Source: a virus. From it: 64,000 nt of DNA. The position numbers were made by a program, and so were the translations under genes. The DNA is taken from positions 20,581 through 84,580 of the IMG/VR virus record IMGVR_UViG_3300036820_000010. One strand, given 5' to 3'. This document shows, piece after piece, positions 15,904 through 51,537 of the stretch. The notes beneath the pieces are model-generated. The model saw only the letters and a program-made list of their open reading frames with translations, did no database searches and was not told the origin of the DNA. Position 1 is the first letter of the stretch; every line of letters starts with the position of its first letter.

Positions 15904-16173
15904 TCAGATTAAAGGCCTCAGAGATATCTCTAGGATTTCTCGGTCAAACTCCATGTGCAGGACCTTCCCCGGGTAGTCGATGTAGACAGTCTTGAGTTCA
16001 GATCCTTCCGGTACCCCTTCGATAACTTGGGCACTGATCACACTGCCTTGAGTCAACATCCCAACCAAGAAATCGATCGAGACCAGGACTTCATTAGAAC
16101 GGGGACCCTTAAAACCTGCGAACGGGGCGGTCTTGGGTTTCGGTCTCCTGACGATGTAGTCCGGAACTCGCAC
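15904..16173 (-). CDS. Hypothetical protein, VPDY-N-terminal family
   Basis: 89 residues starting MRVPDYIVRRPKPK. The start is shared in kind with the product at 36642-36902 (MISVPDYVVRQEEP), suggesting two paralogues. The remainder is beta-rich with a Val/Ile-rich core. The gene overlaps the 3' end of the DpdA gene by 65 nt. No function can be assigned. Confidence 0.5.
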   Translation of the reverse strand: MRVPDYIVRRPKPKTAPFAGFKGPRSNEVLVSIDFLVGMLTQGSVISAQVIEGVPEGSELKTVYIDYPGKVLHMEFDREILEISLRPLI

Positions 16174-16993
16174 CGGGACCTCCTTGGGCTAGAGTAGCAA
16201 AAACAGACGCATTTGCCTTGGCCAAGGCCAGTTCCTCCTCGGTCAGGACCCAAGAAAAGTAATTTAGAGGACGAGTCGGGTACTCTGGAACCTTACCCCC
16301 TGCCTTGAGCCTGATCCCTGCCTTTGCATAGCAGAAGGGCTTTGCACTGTCAGTCGATCGAATCCACGGAAACTCACTAGCCATGTCGCCCAAGACCCAG
16401 AGTTGCCTCCCCCAGCCTAGAAGGTGCACCTCGACACCATCATTTTCGACCAAAGGCAAGATGTCATCGCGGAGAATCTTAGGAACCCCACCTTCCCATA
16501 TCTCGTAGTCCTTAGACACTCCGACGGTCGGGGGTTGGGTGAAGATCTCAGGGTAGACCTTGTGATGTCGGGCCCACTGCATCATCAAACCGAAGAGGCA
16601 GGACTTGTAGTCCTTGTAATCCTCGCCCTGCGGGACCAGCATCAACTTCGGGACAGGAAGTTCTGTCTTCGCGGCAAAAGTAAAGAACTCCTTAGCCTTG
16701 GACAGGGTCTCCATGCTCTTGAACAAGTGATCAGGAACAACTACCTCGTTGGACTTGACTTCACTCGCATGCTTGAGTAGATTAGTTGCCTGGGCCCCTG
16801 CAGTAAATTCGTGGGCACTGTTGTCAAGTATTAAGTAAGCCCCCTCTTTCTTCTCCCGCATGTAGTGATCCCGGTACGCCTTGCGGTTCATCATGTGATC
16901 GAGTAGAAGGTGGTACTTAGAGTGCCCGAATCGATCTAGATGGGCAGTAGGCGGGATCAGAGCAACGAACATTCTAGGAGCGTCTCCATACAT
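16109..16993 (-). CDS. dpdA: DpdA-like DNA 7-deazaguanine transglycosylase
   Basis: 294 residues. Predicted to swap guanine in phage DNA for a 7-deazaguanine base, as DpdA does in phages with such DNA. It has a TIM-barrel style with acidic motifs at strand ends: YLILDNSAHE (D57), EVVVPDHLFKS (D88), HLLGWGRQLW (~191-200) and IRSTDSAKPF (R212, D215), matching the TGT/DpdA arrangement. The last ~25 residues are low complexity. An ATG at 16972 (MFVALIPP) is a possible later start; the chosen one overlaps the upstream gene by 20 nt. Co-location with all preQ1 genes makes the call strong; the subfamily is not determined. Confidence 0.82.
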   Translation of the reverse strand: MYGDAPRMFVALIPPTAHLDRFGHSKYHLLLDHMMNRKAYRDHYMREKKEGAYLILDNSAHEFTAGAQATNLLKHASEVKSNEVVVPDHLFKSMETLSKAKEFFTFAAKTELPVPKLMLVPQGEDYKDYKSCLFGLMMQWARHHKVYPEIFTQPPTVGVSKDYEIWEGGVPKILRDDILPLVENDGVEVHLLGWGRQLWVLGDMASEFPWIRSTDSAKPFCYAKAGIRLKAGGKVPEYPTRPLNYFSWVLTEEELALAKANASVFATLAQGGPGASSGLHRQETETQDRPVRRF

Positions 16994-17777
16994 ATAAGGT
17001 CGTCGTCGGGAACTCGCGGTCGTAGGTGATGTAGTTGGTAAATTGTCCGATCAGTTTCGGGAGAACCGTTTCGATGCCCAGGTACTCGGCCCAATGATTA
17101 TAGCGGATGAGGAGTTGCAGATCGGATTTGAGGGCCTTGACTGTCGAGGCGTGGTCGACATCGTGAAACTCACACTGCATCTTAGTCGGGAAGTTCCAGC
17201 CTCGCCCAAAAGGTTTCTTCATGATCATGGTGTGCGGGTCACCTTCTGACCCCCCACCCGCGTAGTGCATAAAGGTAACCTGAGGCGCAGATGCGCACTC
17301 TAGGGGTTGCTTCGGCCACAGGGAGCACCCTTTACCTCCATTAGGCCTCTCTGCCGTCAGGTAGGGGCAAAACGGATAGGGACTCTGGTTGACCGAAACT
17401 ATAGTACTCGCTTTCCCATTGACGATGATCTCACGCTCTTCCCAAGGCACTAACTTTTTCTTAGACTCTTCCATCTCCGCGAATTCTTCCGGGAGAAAGT
17501 CGAGAGTGACCGCGATCGCACAGCAAGCGTGGCACCCATCGACGCAGACGAACTGCCGGAAGACAGAAGGTCCGATCCCAACCCATTCTGGAATCTTCTT
17601 CAAGACCGGCCTGTTCTTCTTACCCCAGTAGACAGGTTTCGGAGACAGGCAGGCCAACTGATGAGTCATCTTGAAAATCGAGTCGGGGTAGGTAGATGAC
17701 GGATTGCGCTTCAGGCGAGAGTCGTGAGGATCTACATCGTCGAAGAACCCGGGCAGAGTCGGAAGTTCCTTCCTCAT
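16974..17777 (-). CDS. YkgJ-like Fe-S/zinc Cys-cluster protein
   Basis: 267 residues with a Cys pattern like the YkgJ/CxxCxxCC family: C78, C82, C85, C86 (FVCVDGCHACC), C137 (YPFCPYL), C151 and C161 (GCSLWPKQPLEC). Such clusters bind iron-sulfur or zinc. The gene sits directly upstream of dpdA, overlapping by 20 nt, and its ATG overlaps the MazG-like stop by 4 nt. The position suggests a job in base modification, perhaps tailoring or delivering the base, but no reaction is known for this family in phages. Confidence 0.65.
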   Translation of the reverse strand: MRKELPTLPGFFDDVDPHDSRLKRNPSSTYPDSIFKMTHQLACLSPKPVYWGKKNRPVLKKIPEWVGIGPSVFRQFVCVDGCHACCAIAVTLDFLPEEFAEMEESKKKLVPWEEREIIVNGKASTIVSVNQSPYPFCPYLTAERPNGGKGCSLWPKQPLECASAPQVTFMHYAGGGSEGDPHTMIMKKPFGRGWNFPTKMQCEFHDVDHASTVKALKSDLQLLIRYNHWAEYLGIETVLPKLIGQFTNYITYDREFPTTTLYVWRRS

Positions 17778-18082
17778 TTCATTTTCCTATTGATGAACTC
17801 GACGATCTGAATAGCAACTGCAGCAGTGTGCACACACTCCTCAACAACATTGTCCAGGAGTTCATTCCAATGGTCGGAATCAGACTGAGTATCGAAGTCA
17901 AGTATTGCCTTGGACACTTCTCCGAACTCCTCGCCTAGGATCAATCCCCACTTGTCTAGTGGATGATTCTGCTCACCCCATAAGCCTTGTTGTCTTTCCC
18001 TCTCCTCCAGGACCAGTTGCATACTGTCTTCAGTAGACTTGAGATCGAAGTCAGACTTTACAGGCGCCATGGAGTTCTCCAC
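17774..18082 (-). CDS. MazG-like nucleotide pyrophosphohydrolase
   Basis: 102 residues. MazG-type helices with Glu/Asp metal ligands: LVLEERERQQGLWGEQNHPL, ILGEEFGEVSKAILDFD and VVEECVHTAAVAIQ. The family hydrolyses (d)NTPs to monophosphates. In this island it may cleanse the dNTP pool or feed salvage. The start at 18082 overlaps the preceding gene by 25 nt; a second Met at 18070 is possible. Confidence 0.75.
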   Translation of the reverse strand: MENSMAPVKSDFDLKSTEDSMQLVLEERERQQGLWGEQNHPLDKWGLILGEEFGEVSKAILDFDTQSDSDHWNELLDNVVEECVHTAAVAIQIVEFINRKMK

Positions 18083-18351
18083 TCAGGCAAGGCCTCGGGT
18101 GTGATGTACTCTTGGGGAAGCGTATCTTCTAAGGGTTTCAGGTCCTCTGTGAGATTGGAAACTTTCCCCTGAACCTCACCCATACCCTTGCCCAGACTAA
18201 ACAGAAAGGCAGAGAAACTCCTCAACCCCCTAGTGATCTCTTCTCCCAACTCTTGGCCTGACTGGAAAGCAGGATCGACCACTTCGACAACCAGGGGTGG
18301 GTCTAGTCGGTCAGCAAGATTGCGCAAGACCCCACCTAGTTTATGCCTCAC
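18058..18351 (-). CDS. Hypothetical protein between queC and mazG-like gene
   Basis: 97 residues from a GTG at 18351 that overlaps the QueC stop (GTGA). Sequence begins MRHKLGGVLRNLADRLDPP and is mostly helical with an amphipathic middle (SGQELGEEITRGLRSFSAFL). No family recognised. Its coupling to queC places it in the 7-deazaguanine operon. Confidence 0.5.
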   Translation of the reverse strand: MRHKLGGVLRNLADRLDPPLVVEVVDPAFQSGQELGEEITRGLRSFSAFLFSLGKGMGEVQGKVSNLTEDLKPLEDTLPQEYITPEALPEWRTPWRL

Positions 18352-19052
18352 AAATTGATTCCCCCGACCGCAAGGGATCTCTCTAAGGAGACTTGGTACA
18401 AAGTCGGGTCCTTGATCCCAGCCAGATGAAACGCCTCGCGCCTCTCGACACAAGTAGCACAGAGACCGCAGTGCTGGGATCCGCCTTCGTAACACGACCA
18501 AGTCAGGTCCCAAGGGACCTTGGCTTCCTGGCCCCTCTTGGCGATTTCTGCCTTAGTGTTGTGGATGAAAGGAGCAGTTACCCGGAAGTCATCCCTGTAG
18601 AACCCTGAGTTCCCGATCCTCGCGGTCCGGTTGAACTCGTCGATGAAGGCAGGACGGCAGTCAGGGTAGATAGCATGGTCACCCGCGTGGACCGCAGTAA
18701 CCACCCGATCTGCCCCGAGGGCTACTGCCCACCCGACCGCGATCGAAAGGAGGATCATGTTTCGGTTAGGGACCACCGTCGCCTTCATACTCTCTTCGGT
18801 GTAGTGACCATGAGGAACTTCTTTGTCTGAAGTCAGAGCTGACGTTGACAGGAGTTCCCGCAAAGGCTCCATGTCGACCACTCTCCACTCAGAGAAGAGT
18901 CGCTGCGCGCACATGTTGGCGAACTTGAGTTCCTTACTGTGCTTCTGGCCATAATTTACTGAAAGGCAGTACAGTTTGTCCCCGTTGCCTTTGAGGATGT
19001 GGGCCAAGGCAACACTGTCCATGCCTCCCGACAGTAGTACTACACTCTTCAT
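18348..19052 (-). CDS. queC: QueC, 7-cyano-7-deazaguanine (preQ0) synthase
   Basis: 234 residues, full length. QueC converts 7-carboxy-7-deazaguanine to preQ0 with ATP and ammonia. The PP-loop SGGMDSVALAH (residues ~8-18), VPNRNMILLSIA, HAGDHAIYPDCRPAF and the zinc-binding C-terminal cluster SCYEGGSQHCGLCATCVERR are all present. Overlaps its neighbours by 4 nt at both ends, so it is read as one operon with FolE upstream and DpdA downstream. Confidence 0.95.
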   Translation of the reverse strand: MKSVVLLSGGMDSVALAHILKGNGDKLYCLSVNYGQKHSKELKFANMCAQRLFSEWRVVDMEPLRELLSTSALTSDKEVPHGHYTEESMKATVVPNRNMILLSIAVGWAVALGADRVVTAVHAGDHAIYPDCRPAFIDEFNRTARIGNSGFYRDDFRVTAPFIHNTKAEIAKRGQEAKVPWDLTWSCYEGGSQHCGLCATCVERREAFHLAGIKDPTLYQVSLERSLAVGGINL

Positions 19053-19246
19053 AGATAAGTTTGTTCTCCCGCCTTGTAACGAACTGCGTCGATCGCGTCC
19101 ATGACTCGGTCAATCGGTTCAGTCCAGAGTGTACTGAGTTCGCCTAGAGTCATCTTCTTCTCGTCATCGGACATAGACTCTACAGTTTCCATGAGTCTCT
19201 GGAAAGGCATACTGCGTAGAGTACGTCTAGAGTCCTCAAGCATCAC
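19049..19246 (-). CDS. Small protein between folE and queC
   Basis: 65 residues, helical and acidic (MPFQRLMETVESMSDDEKK), overlapping both neighbours by 4 nt. No family recognised. Tight coupling supports expression with the deazaguanine genes. Confidence 0.5.
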   Translation of the reverse strand: MMLEDSRRTLRSMPFQRLMETVESMSDDEKKMTLGELSTLWTEPIDRVMDAIDAVRYKAGEQTYL

Positions 19247-19812
19247 CTAGATCCCCTCAACGCTAAGAACTCAGCACGGGCCTCAGGTTCCCTAAGAAAG
19301 TCCCCCCTGACCGCAGAAGTCACTGTCCTAGACCCTGTCGCCTGGATCCCCCTGATGGTCATGCACGCGTGTTCTGCTTCGAGGACGACCATGCAATTTT
19401 TACTTAGGTTCTCCTCGATGCAGTTAGCAACCTGGGTCGTGATTCTTTCCTGCATGGTCAACCGTCTAGAGTAAATATAGACGATGCGAGCCAGTTTCGA
19501 CAACCCGATGACCCGACCTTGGGGAATGTACCCGACATGAGCAACTCCCAAGAAAGGCAGTAAGTGATGTTCACACAAGGAGACTAGAGGAATGTCCTTG
19601 ACCAGGACCATCGAATTGTAGCCATCAGCCTCGAAGTGAGTGAACAGGTCTTTGGGGTTTAGAGAATACCCTCGAGTCATCTCCTGGTACATCTCGATGA
19701 CGCGGCGAGGCGTCTCCTTCAGGCCTTCCCGCGTCGGGTCCTCCTTGATGTACTTGAGGATATCCTCGACAGCACGCAGACCCCCGGGATGAACTTCCCT
19801 ACCCGACACCAT
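19243..19812 (-). CDS. folE: GTP cyclohydrolase I (FolE)
   Basis: 189 residues, normal family length. Converts GTP to dihydroneopterin triphosphate, the first step toward preQ0. Diagnostic motifs: DPTREGLKETPRRV, zinc ligands in SLCEHHLLPFLGVAHVGYIP, GLSKLARIVYIYSRRLTMQE and AEHACMTIRGIQATGS. It overlaps the DUF3310 gene by 14 nt and the downstream small gene by 4 nt. Confidence 0.96.
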   Translation of the reverse strand: MVSGREVHPGGLRAVEDILKYIKEDPTREGLKETPRRVIEMYQEMTRGYSLNPKDLFTHFEADGYNSMVLVKDIPLVSLCEHHLLPFLGVAHVGYIPQGRVIGLSKLARIVYIYSRRLTMQERITTQVANCIEENLSKNCMVVLEAEHACMTIRGIQATGSRTVTSAVRGDFLREPEARAEFLALRGSR

Positions 19813-20338
19813 CTTCCTCCCGGTGAATCAGGAACCGCAGGTACCAGAGGGCCTTCTTCAAGTCGTCAACTCCCCCCTTCTTCGACCAACGGGTGACGTA
19901 CTTGACGATGTTGCCTTCCGCGTAAGGCAGGTTGTTGGCCGCTATATACTGAATGGGCTCGATCTCGAACCCGCCTCGGTAGTGCCCACCCTGGTGCGAT
20001 GTCGAGAAGAGTTCAGTCCCCTGCTCCTGACGCAAGGCCTCGAGTTTCTCAGGATTGAGTTCTTCTGGGATCTCGTCATCAGGTAGATCCTGCCTTGCCC
20101 CTGGGTCCCCGGGAATCTTGATCTCACTCAGATCCCTACCTAGAGACTCCAGAACATCTTCATCTGCCTCGGGTTCTGGTCCAGGATAAAAATCAGATTC
20201 TGGGGGAGACGGGTTACGGTTAGCCATTTCAGCAACTATCGAGTTTTGGGGAGTGACGACCATCTTCGATCCCCCGACATTAGACTCAGTTGACTCTGCC
20301 TTGGGTTTCTTGTCGTCAGATGTATTTGTCTTGCTCAC
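19799..20338 (-). CDS. DUF3310 domain protein
   Basis: 179 residues. A long acidic, disordered N-terminus (~1-110) precedes a C-terminal DUF3310 domain: HYRGGFEIEPIQYIAANNLP, then GNIVKYVTRWSKKGGVDDLK and KALWYLRFLIHREE. The domain is frequent in phages and often called nucleotide kinase-like, without proven activity. The extended acidic N-terminus is unusual. Located between QueE and FolE. Confidence 0.8.
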   Translation of the reverse strand: MSKTNTSDDKKPKAESTESNVGGSKMVVTPQNSIVAEMANRNPSPPESDFYPGPEPEADEDVLESLGRDLSEIKIPGDPGARQDLPDDEIPEELNPEKLEALRQEQGTELFSTSHQGGHYRGGFEIEPIQYIAANNLPYAEGNIVKYVTRWSKKGGVDDLKKALWYLRFLIHREEDGVG

Positions 20339-20624
20339 TCAAGTCCACCAGTAGATAGTCGTGGATCAGGACGTGGTTCTGGGCCCAAGAATTCTTCTTG
20401 GCTACCTCGCAGACCCTTTGGTGTACTGCTTGGTAGTTCGCCCAGTCGTCAAAAGTCAGATTACCTTTGGTCAAAGCCCAGACTCGAAGAGACTCCATGT
20501 GGCGAAACCCGAGTTTCCGTAGATCTACGCGCAGGCGATTCCATCCACTTCTTTCAGTGTTCAAGCCCATGCCTCGGGCTTCCTTCTCGTACTCCTTCTC
20601 GTTGAGTTCTCGGAAGAACTCCAT
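20316..20624 (-). CDS. Hypothetical protein
   Basis: 102 residues from the ATG at 20624. A TTG at 20687 would extend it into the queE 3' end with a basic low-complexity segment and is less likely. The protein is charged, with a Trp-rich middle (LRVWALTKGNLTFDDWANY). It overlaps the DUF3310 gene by 23 nt. No family recognised. Confidence 0.5.
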   Translation of the reverse strand: MEFFRELNEKEYEKEARGMGLNTERSGWNRLRVDLRKLGFRHMESLRVWALTKGNLTFDDWANYQAVHQRVCEVAKKNSWAQNHVLIHDYLLVDLSEQDKYI

Positions 20625-20655
20625 ACTTGGCTGTTTCTCCACCCTACGCCGCCTC

Positions 20656-21375
20656 CTACGTTCCCCTCGTGTTTCCAAAGATCTCAACCTGCAGACGGGG
20701 GGATAGGTTCCACCCTTCTAAGAGAACCGACTTCGCTACTGCCTGCATATGCTCTTGTAAGGCCTCGACATCGATACCTTCTGGCATGATGTAGACAGGG
20801 TGAAGATCATGCTTGGTCACCAGGTACTTGACCTCGGCCAGATCATCATCAGAAGTGACCACGAACTTCCAACAGGTCTTGTGAGTATCCTGCAGAATAT
20901 CCAAGGCCTCGGGATTGTAACGCTTCGCCTTCTCGTTGCCTGAGTTCTCGAGTTTCGGAGAGCAGTTGAACTGGGTCACCCGCGTGACCAACTCCCGGGT
21001 CGGAGTGATCGTACCTGCTGTCTCGACCTCGACTCGAACCGCAGAAGACAGGGTGTTGAGGTACTCAGCCAAGACCTTCTGCTGCAGGAGAGGCTCACCC
21101 CCAGAGACGACCAACATAGGCACCCTCAAGTTGAAGAGGCCCAAGGTCTTGAACTGAGCAGTGATCTCCTCGAAGGTCATCCGGGTGAGTTCGACCTTAG
21201 GATCGTACTTGACCCCGTTACGTCCTGTCCAGTCCCATGTATAAGGAGTATCACACCAGGAACAGTGCAAGTTGCATGCCCCTAACCTCAAGAAGCAGCA
21301 AACTCTACCTGCGGACGAGCCTTCACCTTGGAAGGTAGGCCCGAACTGTTCACTGACCAAGAGTTCCTCCCTCAT
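20656..21375 (-). CDS. queE: QueE, 7-carboxy-7-deazaguanine synthase
   Basis: 239-residue radical SAM enzyme making 7-carboxy-7-deazaguanine from 6-carboxytetrahydropterin. The Cx3Cx2C cluster motif is in GACNLHCSWCDTPYTWDW; the N-terminal GPTFQGEGSSAG and the SGGEPLLQ motif are typical. Later SAM/substrate segments (EVETAGTITP, CSPKLENSG, YIMPEG) are intact. Only 3 nt separate it from queD upstream. Confidence 0.95.
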   Translation of the reverse strand: MREELLVSEQFGPTFQGEGSSAGRVCCFLRLGACNLHCSWCDTPYTWDWTGRNGVKYDPKVELTRMTFEEITAQFKTLGLFNLRVPMLVVSGGEPLLQQKVLAEYLNTLSSAVRVEVETAGTITPTRELVTRVTQFNCSPKLENSGNEKAKRYNPEALDILQDTHKTCWKFVVTSDDDLAEVKYLVTKHDLHPVYIMPEGIDVEALQEHMQAVAKSVLLEGWNLSPRLQVEIFGNTRGT

Positions 21376-21378
21376 CTG

Positions 21379-21759
21379 TCAGATCGTGATCTCAACCCAG
21401 GTGTTAGCCGTCTCCGAGACAGCAACCTGGACTATTCCCCACTCAGAATCTGGATACTCGGTGCGCACAGTGTCCTGGAGTTGAGTCAGAATCCACTGAC
21501 CAATGCGTTCTGCCGTCGGAACCTGGATGAAGGCGTTGAGGTCCTGGTGATCGAACTTATGCAAGACCGGGTGCATGATCGAAGTCAGAGTAGCAAAGTC
21601 GACAACCATCCCCTCCTCGGACTGGCCTTGAGAGGGTTGGACTGGACCCTCAACTGTCACCCGAACTCGGTAGGAGTGACCATGGGGGCGGCGACATTTT
21701 CCCTCATGGTTAGGTAGATGGTGAGCAGCCTCAAACCCGTACTCCTTCGAAATCCTCAT
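21379..21759 (-). CDS. queD: QueD, 6-carboxytetrahydropterin synthase
   Basis: 126 residues from the ATG at 21759 (MRISKEYGFEAAHHLP). Converts dihydroneopterin triphosphate to 6-carboxy-tetrahydropterin. Zinc ligands and active-site residues are visible in FEAAHHLPNHEGKCRRPHGH, with VVDFATL and KFDHQDLNAF downstream. Longer readings from 21825 would run into the intergenic spacer after queF. Confidence 0.93.
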   Translation of the reverse strand: MRISKEYGFEAAHHLPNHEGKCRRPHGHSYRVRVTVEGPVQPSQGQSEEGMVVDFATLTSIMHPVLHKFDHQDLNAFIQVPTAERIGQWILTQLQDTVRTEYPDSEWGIVQVAVSETANTWVEITI

Positions 21760-21769
21760 GTGCTCCACC

Positions 21770-22210
21770 TCACAGGATCTCCAGTTGAGCAGGATAGGCA
21801 GCAACCGACGTGATCTCGATCCCACCTCGACGCTTCTGGGTCACCTCAACTCGAATCGCCCGTGGGTGCAACTCGAGTTTGATCGTGCGCAGGATAATTG
21901 CTGGAAGAGCCTCACAAAAGACTCCCTGGGTGCGGAACGACTCCAGATAGAGTTTAAGACTCTTACTCTCTAGAATATGATCTGCAGGCCGGTAGCGAAT
22001 CGTGACCCGGTACATGTCAGGCTGCAGAGTAACCGGACAGATCGCGGTCACCTCGTCCGACTGCATCTCGACCATCGAGGGTCGATCGTCCTCTGGGATC
22101 TGGATCGCGTCTAGGCGGGTGAACTTCCTGCCTCGATGACCCAGGTATAGGCGGCTTGAGTCAGGTTCCCCTGCCTCCGTCTCAGAACTTGCCTTCTCGG
22201 TTTCGTTCAT
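21770..22210 (-). CDS. queF: QueF-type preQ0 reductase
   Basis: 146 residues, unimodular QueF size. NADPH-dependent reduction of preQ0 to preQ1. The nucleophilic Cys58 and catalytic Asp65 lie in AICPVTLQPDMY and the QueF signature ESKSLKLY is intact at 81-88. In the usual F-H-E substrate motif the His is Cys99 (VFCEALP) while Glu100 is kept. The enzyme could therefore be a reductase with altered kinetics or a changed product. Overlaps the upstream small gene by 29 nt and lies 10 nt before queD. Confidence 0.88.
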   Translation of the reverse strand: MNETEKASSETEAGEPDSSRLYLGHRGRKFTRLDAIQIPEDDRPSMVEMQSDEVTAICPVTLQPDMYRVTIRYRPADHILESKSLKLYLESFRTQGVFCEALPAIILRTIKLELHPRAIRVEVTQKRRGGIEITSVAAYPAQLEIL

Positions 22211-33282: not shown

Positions 33283-33563
33283 CAGGACCTCCCGCTGTCA
33301 AGACTTGGAATATCAGGATGTCTTGAGAAGAACTCCTCGGAAGAGATCCTCAACAAGTGGAAGGAGACTACATCCTCGAGAAGGGAATAGTACCTGAGCA
33401 TCCATTCTTCTTGCCCGACAGCGATACCTTCCTCAACACCCTCCCGGTACCTCATCTCCTGGACTGTCTCGGGCCTCCTGATGACCAACTCATAATAGAC
33501 CTCAGGGTCAACCTCAACTACCCTGCCTGAGGAAAGATGCACAAAGTCTTTGTCCAGGGTCAT
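33282..33563 (-). CDS. Hypothetical protein
   Basis: 93 residues from the ATG at 33563 (MTLDKDFVHLSSGRV) overlapping the preceding stop by ATGA; earlier starts would extend far into the upstream gene. Tyr/Glu-rich helical part (EVYYELVIRRPETVQEMRYR). No family recognised. Confidence 0.5.
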   Translation of the reverse strand: MTLDKDFVHLSSGRVVEVDPEVYYELVIRRPETVQEMRYREGVEEGIAVGQEEWMLRYYSLLEDVVSFHLLRISSEEFFSRHPDIPSLDSGRS

Positions 33564-34558
33564 CGCCTCAGTTTGAACACCTGATCCTTGACCAGTAGGG
33601 GCTTGTCCTCTGGACCCTTGACGAACGGATCGATCCAGATCTGACGATGATCCTGCAGTGATGGGTACCACTGCTGCCTCCAGAATCCGCCTGTCGCACC
33701 CCCGACGATCCAGCGATGATCCCAGTTGACCCCGATCGGGTCATGGTCAGAATGGGGTCTCTTGGGAACTGCTCGACGCAGAGTGACCACTTGGATTTCC
33801 TGGACCTTAGACTTAGTCTTCCTCTCGATGCCCCTTCTGATCTGACGAGGCAAATGAGCAGTCTCACGGACTGCCACCCTCTGCTGGCACATAGCGAAGA
33901 ATGCCACCAAGACCAAGTAGTCTGGCTTAACTGACTCTTTCTGCCCCTCTTCCCTCTCACTCTCCTTTAGGGTCTTCCCGAATTCGAAGGCAGTAAAATG
34001 CAGGAGAGACAAACGAGGAAGTTGACCCAACATATCCGAGTGCCTCTCTAGGACATCCCGAAAGATCCCCTGGTTGACCTCGTCCAACGGGTCTTGCATG
34101 TCCGACCAGAACCCGACCAAGACCCCAAAACGTCCGTCTACCTCAGGGTACTGAACTGACTTCCAAGACATAGCGCAGGTCCTGCAAGTCTTTCCATGGA
34201 CCTCTTTGAAGGTCAAGTACTCTGACAGGATCATCACCCCGTCAGGAGAAGGCAAGTCTGACTCTAAGAGACGCTGGTCGTCCATCGACTCTGCCGCCTT
34301 CAAGAGGAGGTTAGACATCTCGCGAGTAACCAGATAGACAGGAGCGTCCCGAAAGGGACCTAAGACTCCCCCTGCCCAGGACTCGAAGTTGAAGTTAGTA
34401 CCTATCTTCGTGTTGAGAGAATCCAAAAACCCCTGGAAGACCCTGTGACCCAAAGAAGTCTTAGACCAAGAATAGAGATTAGTAACCAACGAAATCCCGT
34501 CAGCGGCCGTCCCCCACAAGGGGGGAGGCCCACTAACCAGAGAAGGCTTCTGACTCAT
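33560..34558 (-). CDS. Conserved phage protein of unknown function
   Basis: 332 residues from ATG 34558, one base after the MoxR stop. One Cx2C pair (KTCRTCAMSW) and a distinctive C-terminus: DHRWIVGGATGGFWRQQWYP then HRQIWIDPFVKGPEDKPL. I associate this Trp-rich ending with a widespread actinophage protein family whose role is not known. Co-transcribed with MoxR. Confidence 0.6.
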   Translation of the reverse strand: MSQKPSLVSGPPPLWGTAADGISLVTNLYSWSKTSLGHRVFQGFLDSLNTKIGTNFNFESWAGGVLGPFRDAPVYLVTREMSNLLLKAAESMDDQRLLESDLPSPDGVMILSEYLTFKEVHGKTCRTCAMSWKSVQYPEVDGRFGVLVGFWSDMQDPLDEVNQGIFRDVLERHSDMLGQLPRLSLLHFTAFEFGKTLKESEREEGQKESVKPDYLVLVAFFAMCQQRVAVRETAHLPRQIRRGIERKTKSKVQEIQVVTLRRAVPKRPHSDHDPIGVNWDHRWIVGGATGGFWRQQWYPSLQDHRQIWIDPFVKGPEDKPLLVKDQVFKLRR

Positions 34559-34559
34559 G

Positions 34560-35672
34560 TCAGAACTGCTCAACCTTCTTCTGTCCAAAGTCGACCGACA
34601 CCCTAGATGCAGAAGGCCTGTTGTTCTTGGTCTTCCACAAGTGGTACTGAGGAGCAGTCAGAGTGCGCGGGATGTCTTCGACCAGACGGCGGACCAAGTA
34701 GGTCGAGGGCTCTTCTGGCCAGCGCATCCCGTAGACCAGAATTGCGTTAACTGCGTCCTCGTTACCCTTAGCGTAGTTGACCAGAGACAGAGTCAGAGAG
34801 TACAGGAGGGAAGGTTCCTTCGGGATCTTGACCGACTCAGGGGAGTCCAGGATCTCTTGAATCTGAGGGACCTCCTCGAACATCTTCTTGTACTGTAGAA
34901 ACTCGGTCGCCGCACCCTCACCGATGCAACCCGCCATCAGCGCCTTGGTGATGTCCTTGGTCTCGAACTTACCTTCTAAGGAGAGTTCCTCGGCTACCCC
35001 CAGGATCCTATCCGCGTACTCGAAGGACCGTGGAGTAGCGTAGGCCATGTCGGTAACGTCTGGCTTCTCCTTCGCTGCCCCGTTCGCCCAGACCTCCTGA
35101 CGAAAGGCAGCAAACCCCTGCAGTAAAGGAGAAACATCGCCCAACTTCTGGGCCCAAGCAAGAAAAGAGCGAAGAGCATCCTGGGACCCAATCTCGATGT
35201 AGAGGTGACACATGCGGTTGGCCGCCGCCTTCGACAGAGGAGTAGTCCCGATGTCAGAAGTCGAGTTCCCAGCCAAGATCACGAAGGCGTTCTTGGAGAG
35301 TTCGTGCCCATTCAACTTCCGGTCCAGGATCAACTGCAGGGCAGTATTCTGAACGTCGAGGCGAGCCCGGTCGAACTCATCGAGGAACACGATCGCCTTC
35401 TCGTCAGTATCGAAGGGGAGCGTCTGAGGCATGAGGTACGTGAGGACCTTGTGCCCATCCTCCGCATCCTGGGGATAGGGAATCCCGCCTAAGTCAGAAG
35501 GTTCCTTGTCCGAGAGTCGGTAGTCGTAGATCTTGTAGTCCAGACGCTCCGCGATCTGCCTGACTACCGAGGACTTCCCGATCCCAACCGGACCCCACAG
35601 GGCAACCGGGACCTGAGCGACGAAACAAGTCACCGTCGCACGCTCCGCCTGCTCCAAGGTGATGAACTGCAT
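34560..35672 (-). CDS. MoxR-family AAA+ ATPase
   Basis: 370 residues from ATG 35672, preceded by AGGAG. Walker A LWGPVGIGKSSVVRQ (~26-40), Walker B KAIVFLDEFDRA, sensor 1 FVILAGNSTSD and an arginine-rich AANRMCHLYIE. MoxR ATPases remodel or activate partners through VWA proteins; the VWA/HEAGH protein at 28674-30020 is the likely partner. First gene of the unit driven by the promoter at 35731-35759. Confidence 0.88.
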   Translation of the reverse strand: MQFITLEQAERATVTCFVAQVPVALWGPVGIGKSSVVRQIAERLDYKIYDYRLSDKEPSDLGGIPYPQDAEDGHKVLTYLMPQTLPFDTDEKAIVFLDEFDRARLDVQNTALQLILDRKLNGHELSKNAFVILAGNSTSDIGTTPLSKAAANRMCHLYIEIGSQDALRSFLAWAQKLGDVSPLLQGFAAFRQEVWANGAAKEKPDVTDMAYATPRSFEYADRILGVAEELSLEGKFETKDITKALMAGCIGEGAATEFLQYKKMFEEVPQIQEILDSPESVKIPKEPSLLYSLTLSLVNYAKGNEDAVNAILVYGMRWPEEPSTYLVRRLVEDIPRTLTAPQYHLWKTKNNRPSASRVSVDFGQKKVEQF

Positions 35673-35730
35673 ATTTGAACTCCTGCCCTGGACTCGAGCG
35701 GGCTTCTCGCCGGGTTCCTTGATATCTATT

Positions 35731-35759
35731 ATTATAGGCACTCAGACACAGGAACGCAA
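35731..35759 (-). promoter_or_regulatory. Promoter of the MoxR operon
   Basis: TTGCGT, 17-nt spacer, TATAAT on the minus strand, followed by AATAGATAT. It shares CTGAGTGCCTATAATAATAG with the coiled-coil gene promoter apart from one inserted T. The leader to the ATG is about 50 nt. Confidence 0.65.
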
Positions 35760-48075: not shown

Positions 48076-51000
48076 CTATCCACCTCGAATTGTAGTACCC
48101 GAGGATACCTCCCCAATGATCGTCGTCGAGGGGGAACTTCCCTCGATCGAACTCGAGTAGGCCCGAGTAGTCGTCAAGAGTCCCTTTGATTTCAGTGCGG
48201 CTGTCATAGAAATATCGGTAGAAATCGTACCCGAGACCAAGATCTTCTCGACAACCTGACCGATGAGAACAGATTGCGCAGCAAGTTCTCCGATCAGGGA
48301 AACCAAGGCAGCGAGTTCTCCTTGGGCCTCAGAAGTTGCTTGAATCGAGCCTTGGACCTCTAGTCTGAGACCTGATTCGATGGCTGAAGTCAGGCCAGTG
48401 ACTGTCTCGATAGTCCCGACGACCCAGTAGATAGCCACTGAGTCGCCACTAAGTTCCGAGGCAGAAGAAATCTGACCCTCGACAGCAAAATCTTCCGATA
48501 GTTCCGAGGCAAGAGCGCTTCCGGCCGAGATCGTGCCTTCTAGACTTATCGCGACAGATGGTGTCGCCTGCAGGCCTGTCTCGGCTGGGATAGACCCGTC
48601 AACTCCTGTCCCCGAAGACTCAGTAACACTAGCCGAGACTTCAGATTCTGCCTCAAGACTTCCGGTCAAACCCCCAGAAACTTTGGGTTCTGCACTGAGA
48701 TCTGTCCCGGATACTATAGATCCCTCGACTGAGATGACTACAGAAGGCGTAGATCCTAGGGAAGTCTTTGCCTCTAGTCCCCCAGTAACCTGATTCCCTG
48801 AAGTTTGCGACTCGGTCGCTTCAATCTGGGTAAGGGAAAGTATAGACCCAGTCAAGTCTATTCCGATTGCGGGTGTCGCTTCTAGGGAAGTTTCTGCACT
48901 GACGATCCCGGATTCTTCTTCTGTTGCCTTGATCGTACCTGTGAGTGCAGTCGAATCTTGAACTTGCGAGATCAGAGAGACTTGAACTGCAGGCGTCGCC
49001 TCAACTGCTGCCGAGGCAACCAAACTTCCAGTTTCACTCTCGACAACAGTTGGGGTCGAGGTGAGGCTCGACTCGGGTTCAACTGAACCCGAGATCGACT
49101 CTAGGGCACTAGCAGTACCGGATAGGTCCGACTGAGATGAGATAGACCCGGTCAGGGGGACAACGGAAACCGGGGAGAATGCCTCAACATAGGCGGTATA
49201 AGGAGCAGTTGCCCCGTTCGTGTTCCCCCAGTTGACCTCTAAGACGTTGGTCCCAGATCCCGAAGGCCCGTCTAGAACGACCCAAGTCTGGACCGGAGGG
49301 TTGGTCGTCGGAGAAGACAACCCGACCAAGGTCTGCAACTTTCCGGCAGCGACCGGATTCCCGCCTGCGTCAGTCGCGTAACCCATGATGGCCGAGACGA
49401 CCAGATCTCCAGGAGATGCCGAGGTTACCTCGACACCAGCAGATTGGTTGAGGTCAGTTTGAGCAGAATCCTCAGAGGCACTGACATCTACTCCTAGGCT
49501 AGAAGTGATCATGCCGAGGTCCAAAGAGGAGTTGCCTGATGTCCCAGGAGTGTGAGTCATACTCACGGTGAGCCCAGAAGATGCGATCGCCGAACTTGCT
49601 ACCGCCCCCCAAACACTCTGCCGAATATGGTTAGACCCATTGACTTGATCCCCTGAGTCGTTGAGTTGAGACCAGGTGAGGCCTCCCCCAGACGGAGAAG
49701 AGACACTCCCCGCCAATCCTGTAAACCCAGTATCCGACGCGCGCAAGCGCAGAATCGCACCTGCTGGGATCGCGCCTAGGCTGTTGGTGATCGTCGGAGT
49801 GATCGAAGAGTAGCCCAGGTTCTGGCCTAAAAGGGTAAACTCTGCGCTTGGGGTCCCCAAACCTGCGCCTGCAGGATTCAACGAGAGTGCGAACCCGACC
49901 CAGGTCGAGGTCGCAGATGCTGTCGTCGAGACGGACTGGTTGGATCCCGCTGCCTGTCCGTCGGAGTCAAACCAGGCCATAGGAGAAGAGGAGGCCCTCT
50001 GGGTCAGTCCACTGGGTGTCGAGAAGGTGAAGTTAGATACTGAGTAGGGAACAAACCCGATGACTGCCCAGTTTTGGTTCTGGACCTGGAACTGATTCGA
50101 GGCGACAGGAGAACCTGTACCCACCCCTGCGAAGACGACTGAGTAATCCTGGTTGGTGTAGGGAGTAGTGTTGTCTATGCCTCGATAAGCACCTGCCTCG
50201 ACTCCAGAATAGCAAGCAGTCGGGGTTCCTGATGCAGCAAAATCAAAAGTTGGAGTAGGAGTCGATCCTAACCCCCAGTAGACAGCGTTTTTCAGACCCG
50301 CGTTGTCAGAAGACCCGATCAAGGTCCAGCCTGAAGGCGCTGCGGGTACGTCAGGAGCAGTTGCCCCGTCCCAGTAGACGTGGGCGAAGATGACGTCTGT
50401 AGTTTGCAGAAGGCCCCCGCCCAACAGGGGTACCGTGACCGAGTTGGCAGGAGAGGTGTTGATCGAATCGTCCCAATCGACGAAGTCTACTCCAACTACT
50501 CCTCCGTGGGCAGTTCCAGCCAACTGAGATGCAGCAGAGATGGAACCGGTCAAGGCAATCTGTTCAGACAGGGTGCCTGCTAGTTGCGAGGCAGGCGCAG
50601 AAGACGCAGTTTCGGCAACTGCTGCCTTGACGGCTGCGGTCAAAGCCGTCTGATCTTGGACAGTACCCGTGATCGACGACCCAGTAGTCTTAGAATCTAC
50701 CCCGGAGATGGTGCTTGCTGCCGTGATGCTGCCCGAGACTGCAACTGCTATATGGGGAACCGCATTGACTTGAGAACCCGCGGACAAGGCAGCATTGACA
50801 GCTTCTTTGGAAGTTGGTGCAGAGGTGAGACCAGTAGTAGAAGAAGAACTTCCGGATAGTTCTTTTCGAGCAGAAACAGACCCTGCTAGAGTAGAGGCTG
50901 AGGCAACTGAACCCGAGACGTTATCTGTAGTTCCAGTAGGTGAGAACTTGAAGGTGGCGACTGAACCCGCGTACCCAGAAGTTGAACTCGAGAAGGAGAC

Positions 51001-51537
51001 AGAGGCAGTCAGGGGAGATCCTGAAGTTCCAACTGCAGCGTTGGTTTCAGTGATAAATTGTCCCGGAGACCCAGCGAGGTTGGACCCTAAGGTATACCCA
51101 GATTCTGCAGTAGCAGTTCCATGATCAGAGATGAAGCATGCGCAACCGAGTTCATTAGTTCCCGAAAGATTTCCGTTGGTTGTCGCGGAGAAAGAAGTGA
51201 ACGAACCAGAAGCATTAGCAGAATTTCCGCCCTGATCAGCGGTGCAGGCGGGCCACTCCTCGATGCGCAGGAAGACGTCTCCTGACCCTCCTGACATAGT
51301 GAAGGTCTTAAGACCTCCTGGGTTCGCCTCGTAACGAGCGATTGCTGTCCAGGACCCATAGTTACTGTTGGCATCAGTAGAGTTTGGGACGATCGTGAAT
51401 CCCGACGGGGGAGTCAGTGCAGTGTCAGACGAGTAATCGGCCATATAGGCGATCAGGGTCGTCCCTACACTTGAGTTAGCCCCAAGTGAAACTGAACTGC
51501 CTTCTACTTGGACCCCAGGTTGAACTAAGGAGGGCAC
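48076..51537 (-). CDS. Very long modular repeat fibre/adhesin-like protein
   Basis: 1153 residues, Ser/Thr/Ala/Gly-rich, almost Lys-free. Three related beta-sandwich modules can be seen at about 1-205, 345-560 and 560-795 (each with PSGWT/PSGFT-like turns and W-rich strands). Between and after them run 20-odd-residue repeats of the form GSI-x-A-x-S-x-L, ending each with a Val-rich strand (LEGTISAGSALASELSEDFA; GSIVSGTDLSAEPKVSGGLT). Likely a virion appendage that reaches the cell surface. Placed next to BppU-like and fibre-like genes. Repeat number not counted exactly. Confidence 0.7.
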   Translation of the reverse strand: MPSLVQPGVQVEGSSVSLGANSSVGTTLIAYMADYSSDTALTPPSGFTIVPNSTDANSNYGSWTAIARYEANPGGLKTFTMSGGSGDVFLRIEEWPACTADQGGNSANASGSFTSFSATTNGNLSGTNELGCACFISDHGTATAESGYTLGSNLAGSPGQFITETNAAVGTSGSPLTASVSFSSSTSGYAGSVATFKFSPTGTTDNVSGSVASASTLAGSVSARKELSGSSSSTTGLTSAPTSKEAVNAALSAGSQVNAVPHIAVAVSGSITAASTISGVDSKTTGSSITGTVQDQTALTAAVKAAVAETASSAPASQLAGTLSEQIALTGSISAASQLAGTAHGGVVGVDFVDWDDSINTSPANSVTVPLLGGGLLQTTDVIFAHVYWDGATAPDVPAAPSGWTLIGSSDNAGLKNAVYWGLGSTPTPTFDFAASGTPTACYSGVEAGAYRGIDNTTPYTNQDYSVVFAGVGTGSPVASNQFQVQNQNWAVIGFVPYSVSNFTFSTPSGLTQRASSSPMAWFDSDGQAAGSNQSVSTTASATSTWVGFALSLNPAGAGLGTPSAEFTLLGQNLGYSSITPTITNSLGAIPAGAILRLRASDTGFTGLAGSVSSPSGGGLTWSQLNDSGDQVNGSNHIRQSVWGAVASSAIASSGLTVSMTHTPGTSGNSSLDLGMITSSLGVDVSASEDSAQTDLNQSAGVEVTSASPGDLVVSAIMGYATDAGGNPVAAGKLQTLVGLSSPTTNPPVQTWVVLDGPSGSGTNVLEVNWGNTNGATAPYTAYVEAFSPVSVVPLTGSISSQSDLSGTASALESISGSVEPESSLTSTPTVVESETGSLVASAAVEATPAVQVSLISQVQDSTALTGTIKATEEESGIVSAETSLEATPAIGIDLTGSILSLTQIEATESQTSGNQVTGGLEAKTSLGSTPSVVISVEGSIVSGTDLSAEPKVSGGLTGSLEAESEVSASVTESSGTGVDGSIPAETGLQATPSVAISLEGTISAGSALASELSEDFAVEGQISSASELSGDSVAIYWVVGTIETVTGLTSAIESGLRLEVQGSIQATSEAQGELAALVSLIGELAAQSVLIGQVVEKILVSGTISTDISMTAALKSKGLLTTTRAYSSSIEGSSPSTTIIGEVSSGTTIRGG

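Follow-up and report, generated by a model that had tools for sequence, protein, structure and literature searches.

A phage 7-deazaguanine operon with a divergent DpdA-like transglycosylase and a YkgJ-like protein, predicted to make N-methylated dPreQ1 DNA

The 64,000-nucleotide stretch of phage DNA analysed here (the window) carries an operon in which genes of 7-deazaguanine synthesis (que genes) lie next to a gene for a DpdA-like guanine transglycosylase, and the locus raises the question which base such an operon would place in DNA. The source is an 84,580-base IMG/VR virus record with tail, terminase, polymerase and helicase genes of phage type. That the operon is real and serves 7-deazaguanine DNA modification in general is well supported. 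With a probability of about two in three, its product is DNA carrying N-methylated dPreQ1 (mdPreQ1), made by the que enzymes, the DpdA-like protein and a YkgJ-like cysteine-cluster protein encoded between QueC and the transglycosylase.

For this product we infer the following route. FolE, QueD, QueE and QueC would lead from GTP to preQ0, and QueF from preQ0 to preQ1 (7-aminomethyl-7-deazaguanine). After replication, the DpdA-like transglycosylase would exchange guanine in the phage DNA for the 7-deazaguanine base. The YkgJ-like protein, as a putative iron-sulfur enzyme, would methylate the aminomethyl nitrogen with S-adenosylmethionine (SAM), either after or before insertion, giving 7-(methylamino)methyl-7-deazaguanine. 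Guanines modified in this way would very probably hide restriction sites from bacterial restriction enzymes.

A sequence-only reading of the window had described intact FolE, QueD, QueE, QueC and QueF genes in one operon with a DpdA-like gene, and family scores and motifs bear this out. The six genes contain no internal stops and form a single operon on the minus strand (Table 1); the complete route from GTP to preQ1, together with a DpdA-like transglycosylase, is well supported by motifs and a fold search. FolE, QueD, QueC and QueF score above the cut-offs of their family models. QueE reaches 103.6 bits with TIGR03365, under the model cut-off of 206, and matches the QueE family phrog_2076; it is 43% identical to QueE of Mycobacterium phage Knocker. 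The motifs CX3CX2C in QueE, CX3HGH in QueD, CEHH and CMTIRG in FolE and SGGMDS in QueC are all kept. Chance or decayed open reading frames (ORFs) are ruled out, since all pathway genes are full length and, as read from their sequences, retain their catalytic motifs. For QueD a start at 21759 is more likely than the ORF limit at 21825, and for the DpdA-like gene a start at 16972 is more likely than the limit at 16993.

Which base leaves the pathway depends on QueF. The defining set of QueF comprises Cys55, Asp62, Glu97 and the E78 motif E(S/L)K(S/A)hK(L/Y)(Y/F/W) (PMC5372742), with the equivalents C58, D65, E100 and E81-SKSLKLY in the window protein, which also has R128 and keeps the motifs CPVTLQPD, ESKSLKLY and RGG. 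The operon would yield archaeosine (dG+) if this homologue acted as QueF-L, an enzyme with the same fold and cysteine that is hard to separate from QueF by similarity (PMC6884629). In line with such a role, the position of His96 beside the catalytic Glu is occupied by Cys99. However, this position is variable among phage QueFs and Cys is its commonest residue (52 of 98 rows), so that the exchange was rejected as evidence of an inactive or changed enzyme. In 95 of the 98 collected phage QueFs the catalytic residues do not vary, which is in part a consequence of the search patterns. QueF-L identity was rejected on motifs, because the NADPH motif ESKSLKLY and RGG, both present here, are missing or replaced in the solved archaeal QueF-L 5jyx. 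Moreover, phage proteins labelled QueF-L by HHpred still gave dPreQ1 in phages Dp-1 and HVTV-1 (PMC6884629). Archaeosine is thus extremely improbable, and the window protein is predicted from its residues to be a preQ0 nitrile reductase of the unimodular QueF type.

The transglycosylase is less easily recognized. No sequence match to it was found in Pfam, NCBIfam or PDB models, PDB sequence searches with profiles and a close-relative scan with the window sequence alone yielded nothing useful, and tblastn connects it weakly (22–27% identity) to annotated phage DNA guanine transglycosylases and their unannotated relatives. The window sequence was aligned with environmental relatives, 18 sequences in all, and IMG/VR was scanned with this alignment, independently of QueF; of the 66 loci found, 59 hold at least one que gene. 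The AlphaFold2 model built from this alignment has a predicted local distance difference test (pLDDT) value of 91.9. A structure search had been set beforehand as the test of the DpdA assignment: its top PDB matches are tRNA-guanine transglycosylases (TGTs), which make up 48 of 50 matches at E≤0.001 with template modelling (TM) scores near 0.5, ruling out another TIM-barrel family. The closest viral fold models are those of Cellulophaga phage phiST (TM 0.71–0.78), with proteins of Vibrio phage nt-1 and Mufasa8 lower. Asp50, Asp81, His183 and Asp208 are invariant in the clade; Asp50 lies in LDNSA and Asp208 in STDSA, which hhalign pairs with the DSGA and DS motifs of canonical phage DpdA. Because of the modelled fold, the weak tblastn matches to phage DpdA and the operon context, we conclude that the protein belongs to the TGT/DpdA superfamily, with a (beta/alpha)8 TGT-type fold, as a divergent clade.

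A transglycosylase of this kind could also act on tRNA, the que genes then raising queuosine in host tRNA, as has been proposed for que-bearing phages that lack DpdA (PMC6884629). Here, however, a DpdA-type gene stands within the operon, and in phage CAjan DpdA is essential for DNA modification (PMC6884629). Since the window protein (287 residues) is in addition not as long as Tgt and has its nearest models among phage DpdA proteins, a tRNA target is very improbable and DNA is the probable one.

The sequence-only reading had proposed dPreQ1 or a derivative as the inserted base. It listed neither the YkgJ-like gene nor the 102-residue MazG-like ORF, the DUF3310 protein and two small ORFs, and it is the first of these that shifts the expectation towards a derivative, plain dPreQ1 becoming less likely. 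The YkgJ-like protein has a CX3CX2CC motif, and eight of its cysteines are conserved without exception in an alignment of ten relatives, of which eight match PF03692 at E≤0.05 (best 1.3e-7). Phages Pan1, Knocker and phiSM with its relatives carry homologues, as do large Vibrio phages; a scan of bacterial genomes and close-relative scans with the window sequence alone or a two-sequence alignment gave nothing useful.

The distribution of this gene follows that of QueF. In whole-record searches of 15 phages it was found in five (Pan1, Knocker, phiSM, VH7D and D486), all with QueF, and in none of those without QueF, in a sample that is not independent, as these five were mostly found through the YkgJ-like gene itself. 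A scan centred on the YkgJ-like gene revealed QueF at 17 of 23 loci; one more has QueF elsewhere on the contig, and the other five end less than 3 kb from the gene. Every untruncated viral record examined with a YkgJ-like gene also carries QueF. Among non-redundant loci of the DpdA-centred scan, the gene is present at 13 of 30 with QueF and at none of eight without it, where QueE is kept (Fisher p=0.034, a value that ignores kinship; a stricter filter gives p=0.068). Three contigs (L096, L097 and L098) show the order QueF-QueD-QueE-FolE-QueC-YkgJ-DpdA, identical to the window. Because the co-occurrence extends across unrelated phages, a methylated derivative of preQ1 is a likelier base than preQ1 itself. 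In the large Vibrio phages VH7D (L015) and D486 (L016) the YkgJ-like gene lies far from QueF in the same genome, and at one locus (L138:8562–9677) two adjoining YkgJ-type matches next to DpdA represent a duplicated or split gene.

The chemistry is suggested by an analogy. Like lysine, preQ1 ends in a methylene amine. FliB, which holds a [4Fe-4S] cluster, catalyses the SAM-dependent N-methylation of lysine amines, primary amines on a methylene group; it has eight conserved cysteines, and its authors compare the cysteine motif to PF03692 (PMC8598068). In contrast to what is proposed for the YkgJ-like family, FliB acts on a protein, and its motif is CX4CX3CC instead of CX3CX2CC. Together with the tie to QueF, the maker of the preQ1 amine, this analogy leads us to read the YkgJ-like protein best as a putative preQ1 N-methyltransferase. 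Cui and colleagues reportedly described mdPreQ1 in 2023, together with DpdM, a methyltransferase of unusual fold that acts on dPreQ1.

Several points weigh against an mdPreQ1 operon, in addition to the kinship behind the p-value. The window copy of the YkgJ-like protein taken alone scores 16.4 bits with PF03692, below the cut-off of 23, its AlphaFold2 model is of moderate quality (pLDDT 75.6), and the model matches no solved fold in the PDB. The likeness to FliB is drawn from a motif description, and the identity with DpdM is putative. On the side of the transglycosylase, hhalign aligns the DpdA-like protein to canonical phage DpdA with E=2.6e-4 but a probability of only 42%, and gave no match to E. 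coli Tgt.

That weak PF03692 match would also suit a phage with plain dPreQ1 in its DNA, in which the YkgJ-like protein does other work, such as metal supply, iron-sulfur support of QueE or action on another host target. In Streptococcus phage Dp-1, which shares the six genes, dPreQ1 is present and amounts to about 1.7% of G (PMC6884629). In a QueF-bearing Vibrio phage dPreQ1 makes up 15% of dG, and the QueF-bearing Schizotequatrovirus 6E351A has dPreQ1 of 295 Da (PMC12028318). Dp-1, however, which the YkgJ searches covered, has no YkgJ-like gene, and the absence of this gene from the QueF-less DpdA loci that keep QueE ties it to QueF and speaks against general QueE support. Plain dPreQ1 is therefore possible, if unlikely. 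Rather improbable is a YkgJ-like protein with undescribed preQ1 chemistry, either another N-substitution or a change before insertion that alters what the divergent DpdA accepts, which would result in an unlisted DNA base. A formyltransferase (DpdN-like) route was rejected, as the 84.6-kb record contains no PF00551 match.

Comparison with known phages places methylation of preQ1, the product favoured here, in context. The sequence-only reading noted that known phages with dPreQ0-type DNA carry part of the gene set; all of it is, however, already known from both Dp-1 (PMC6884629) and Knocker. In Dp-1 the six genes are clustered and QueF has the same catalytic set (PMC6884629), whereas its DpdA is of another lineage, the gene order differs and a transporter gene, QueT, is present. 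Knocker combines QueF, DpdA, the YkgJ-like gene, QueC, QueD, QueE and FolE in a single cluster, and its QueF likewise has Cys for His; unlike the window, it has a DpdA of the canonical phage lineage and another gene order. Cellulophaga phage phiSM has a YkgJ-like gene together with QueF and DpdA, and Cellulophaga phage phi38:2 shows the same YkgJ match. In contrast to the window, their DpdA is of the canonical lineage and adjoined by a ParB-like partner, to which no match was found in the window's record. In PMC11515303, which cites Cui et al. 2023, phi38:2 is reported as 7-deazaguanine-modified; as phi38:2 carries the YkgJ-like gene, we count this as support for methylation by the YkgJ-like protein.

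The annotated DpdA proteins closest in sequence are those of Flavobacterium phage immuto_2-6A and phiST. Unlike the window, phiST lacks QueF and immuto_2-6A has a formyltransferase in place of YkgJ. This formyltransferase-like gene (L002:8897–9424) adjoins DpdA and QueF and is a candidate for an alternative preQ1-decorating enzyme. In phiST an annotated MazG-like gene adjoins FolE; for the 102-residue protein of the window, a MazG-like look is likewise read from its sequence.

The six-gene set is itself already known from Dp-1, with measured dPreQ1. What is added here is the prediction of a methylated preQ1 product, the coupling of QueF and YkgJ, and a divergent DpdA lineage that is invisible to Pfam and NCBIfam and stands in que operons at most of the environmental loci found. 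As a rule, a YkgJ-like gene together with QueF would predict a methylated base, which would fit a known, little-studied family of phage DNA modifications. If the reading as a [4Fe-4S] methyltransferase is true, one cysteine-cluster family modifies primary amines on both flagellin and DNA bases.

Table 1. Genes of the operon in order of transcription, with positions in the window; a further 65-residue ORF lies between FolE and QueC.
Gene product	Position	Strand	Evidence
QueF, preQ0 nitrile reductase (predicted), 146 residues	21770–22210	-	TIGR03139, 91.7 bits (cut-off 86.9); catalytic residues
QueD, 6-carboxytetrahydropterin synthase, 126 residues from ATG	21379–21759 (ORF reaches 21825)	-	TIGR03367, 95.8 bits (cut-off 89.25); CRRPHGH
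QueE, radical-SAM 7-carboxy-7-deazaguanine synthase	20656–21375	-	phrog_2076, 8e-54; CNLHCSWC
123-residue ORF between QueE and DUF3310 gene	20316–20687	-	no Pfam or PHROG match
DUF3310 protein	19799–20338	-	PF11753, 3e-12
FolE, GTP cyclohydrolase I	19243–19812	-	TIGR00063, 212 bits (cut-off 181.6); CEHHLLP, CMTIRG
QueC, preQ0 synthase	18348–19052	-	TIGR00364, 187 bits (cut-off 150); SGGMDS P-loop; CGLCATC cysteines
102-residue protein, MazG-like nucleotide pyrophosphatase look	17774–18082	-	phrog_2831, 2e-15 (unnamed); no Pfam match
YkgJ/CxxCxxCC cysteine-cluster protein, 267 residues, proposed preQ1 N-methyltransferase (DpdM-type)	16974–17777	-	PF03692 in relatives; eight invariant cysteines
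DpdA-like DNA guanine transglycosylase (predicted), 287 residues	16109–16972 (ORF reaches 16993)	-	AlphaFold2 fold; operon context

The stop of the gene for the 102-residue protein overlaps the start of the YkgJ-like gene by four bases. No Rfam match to a preQ1 riboswitch was found in the window. Elsewhere on the minus strand, an ORF of 1153 residues near the terminase gene (48079–51537) has no Pfam or PHROG match, and a 342-residue protein of phrog_15934, a family of no assigned function (33563–34588), follows a MoxR-type AAA ATPase (34563–35741).

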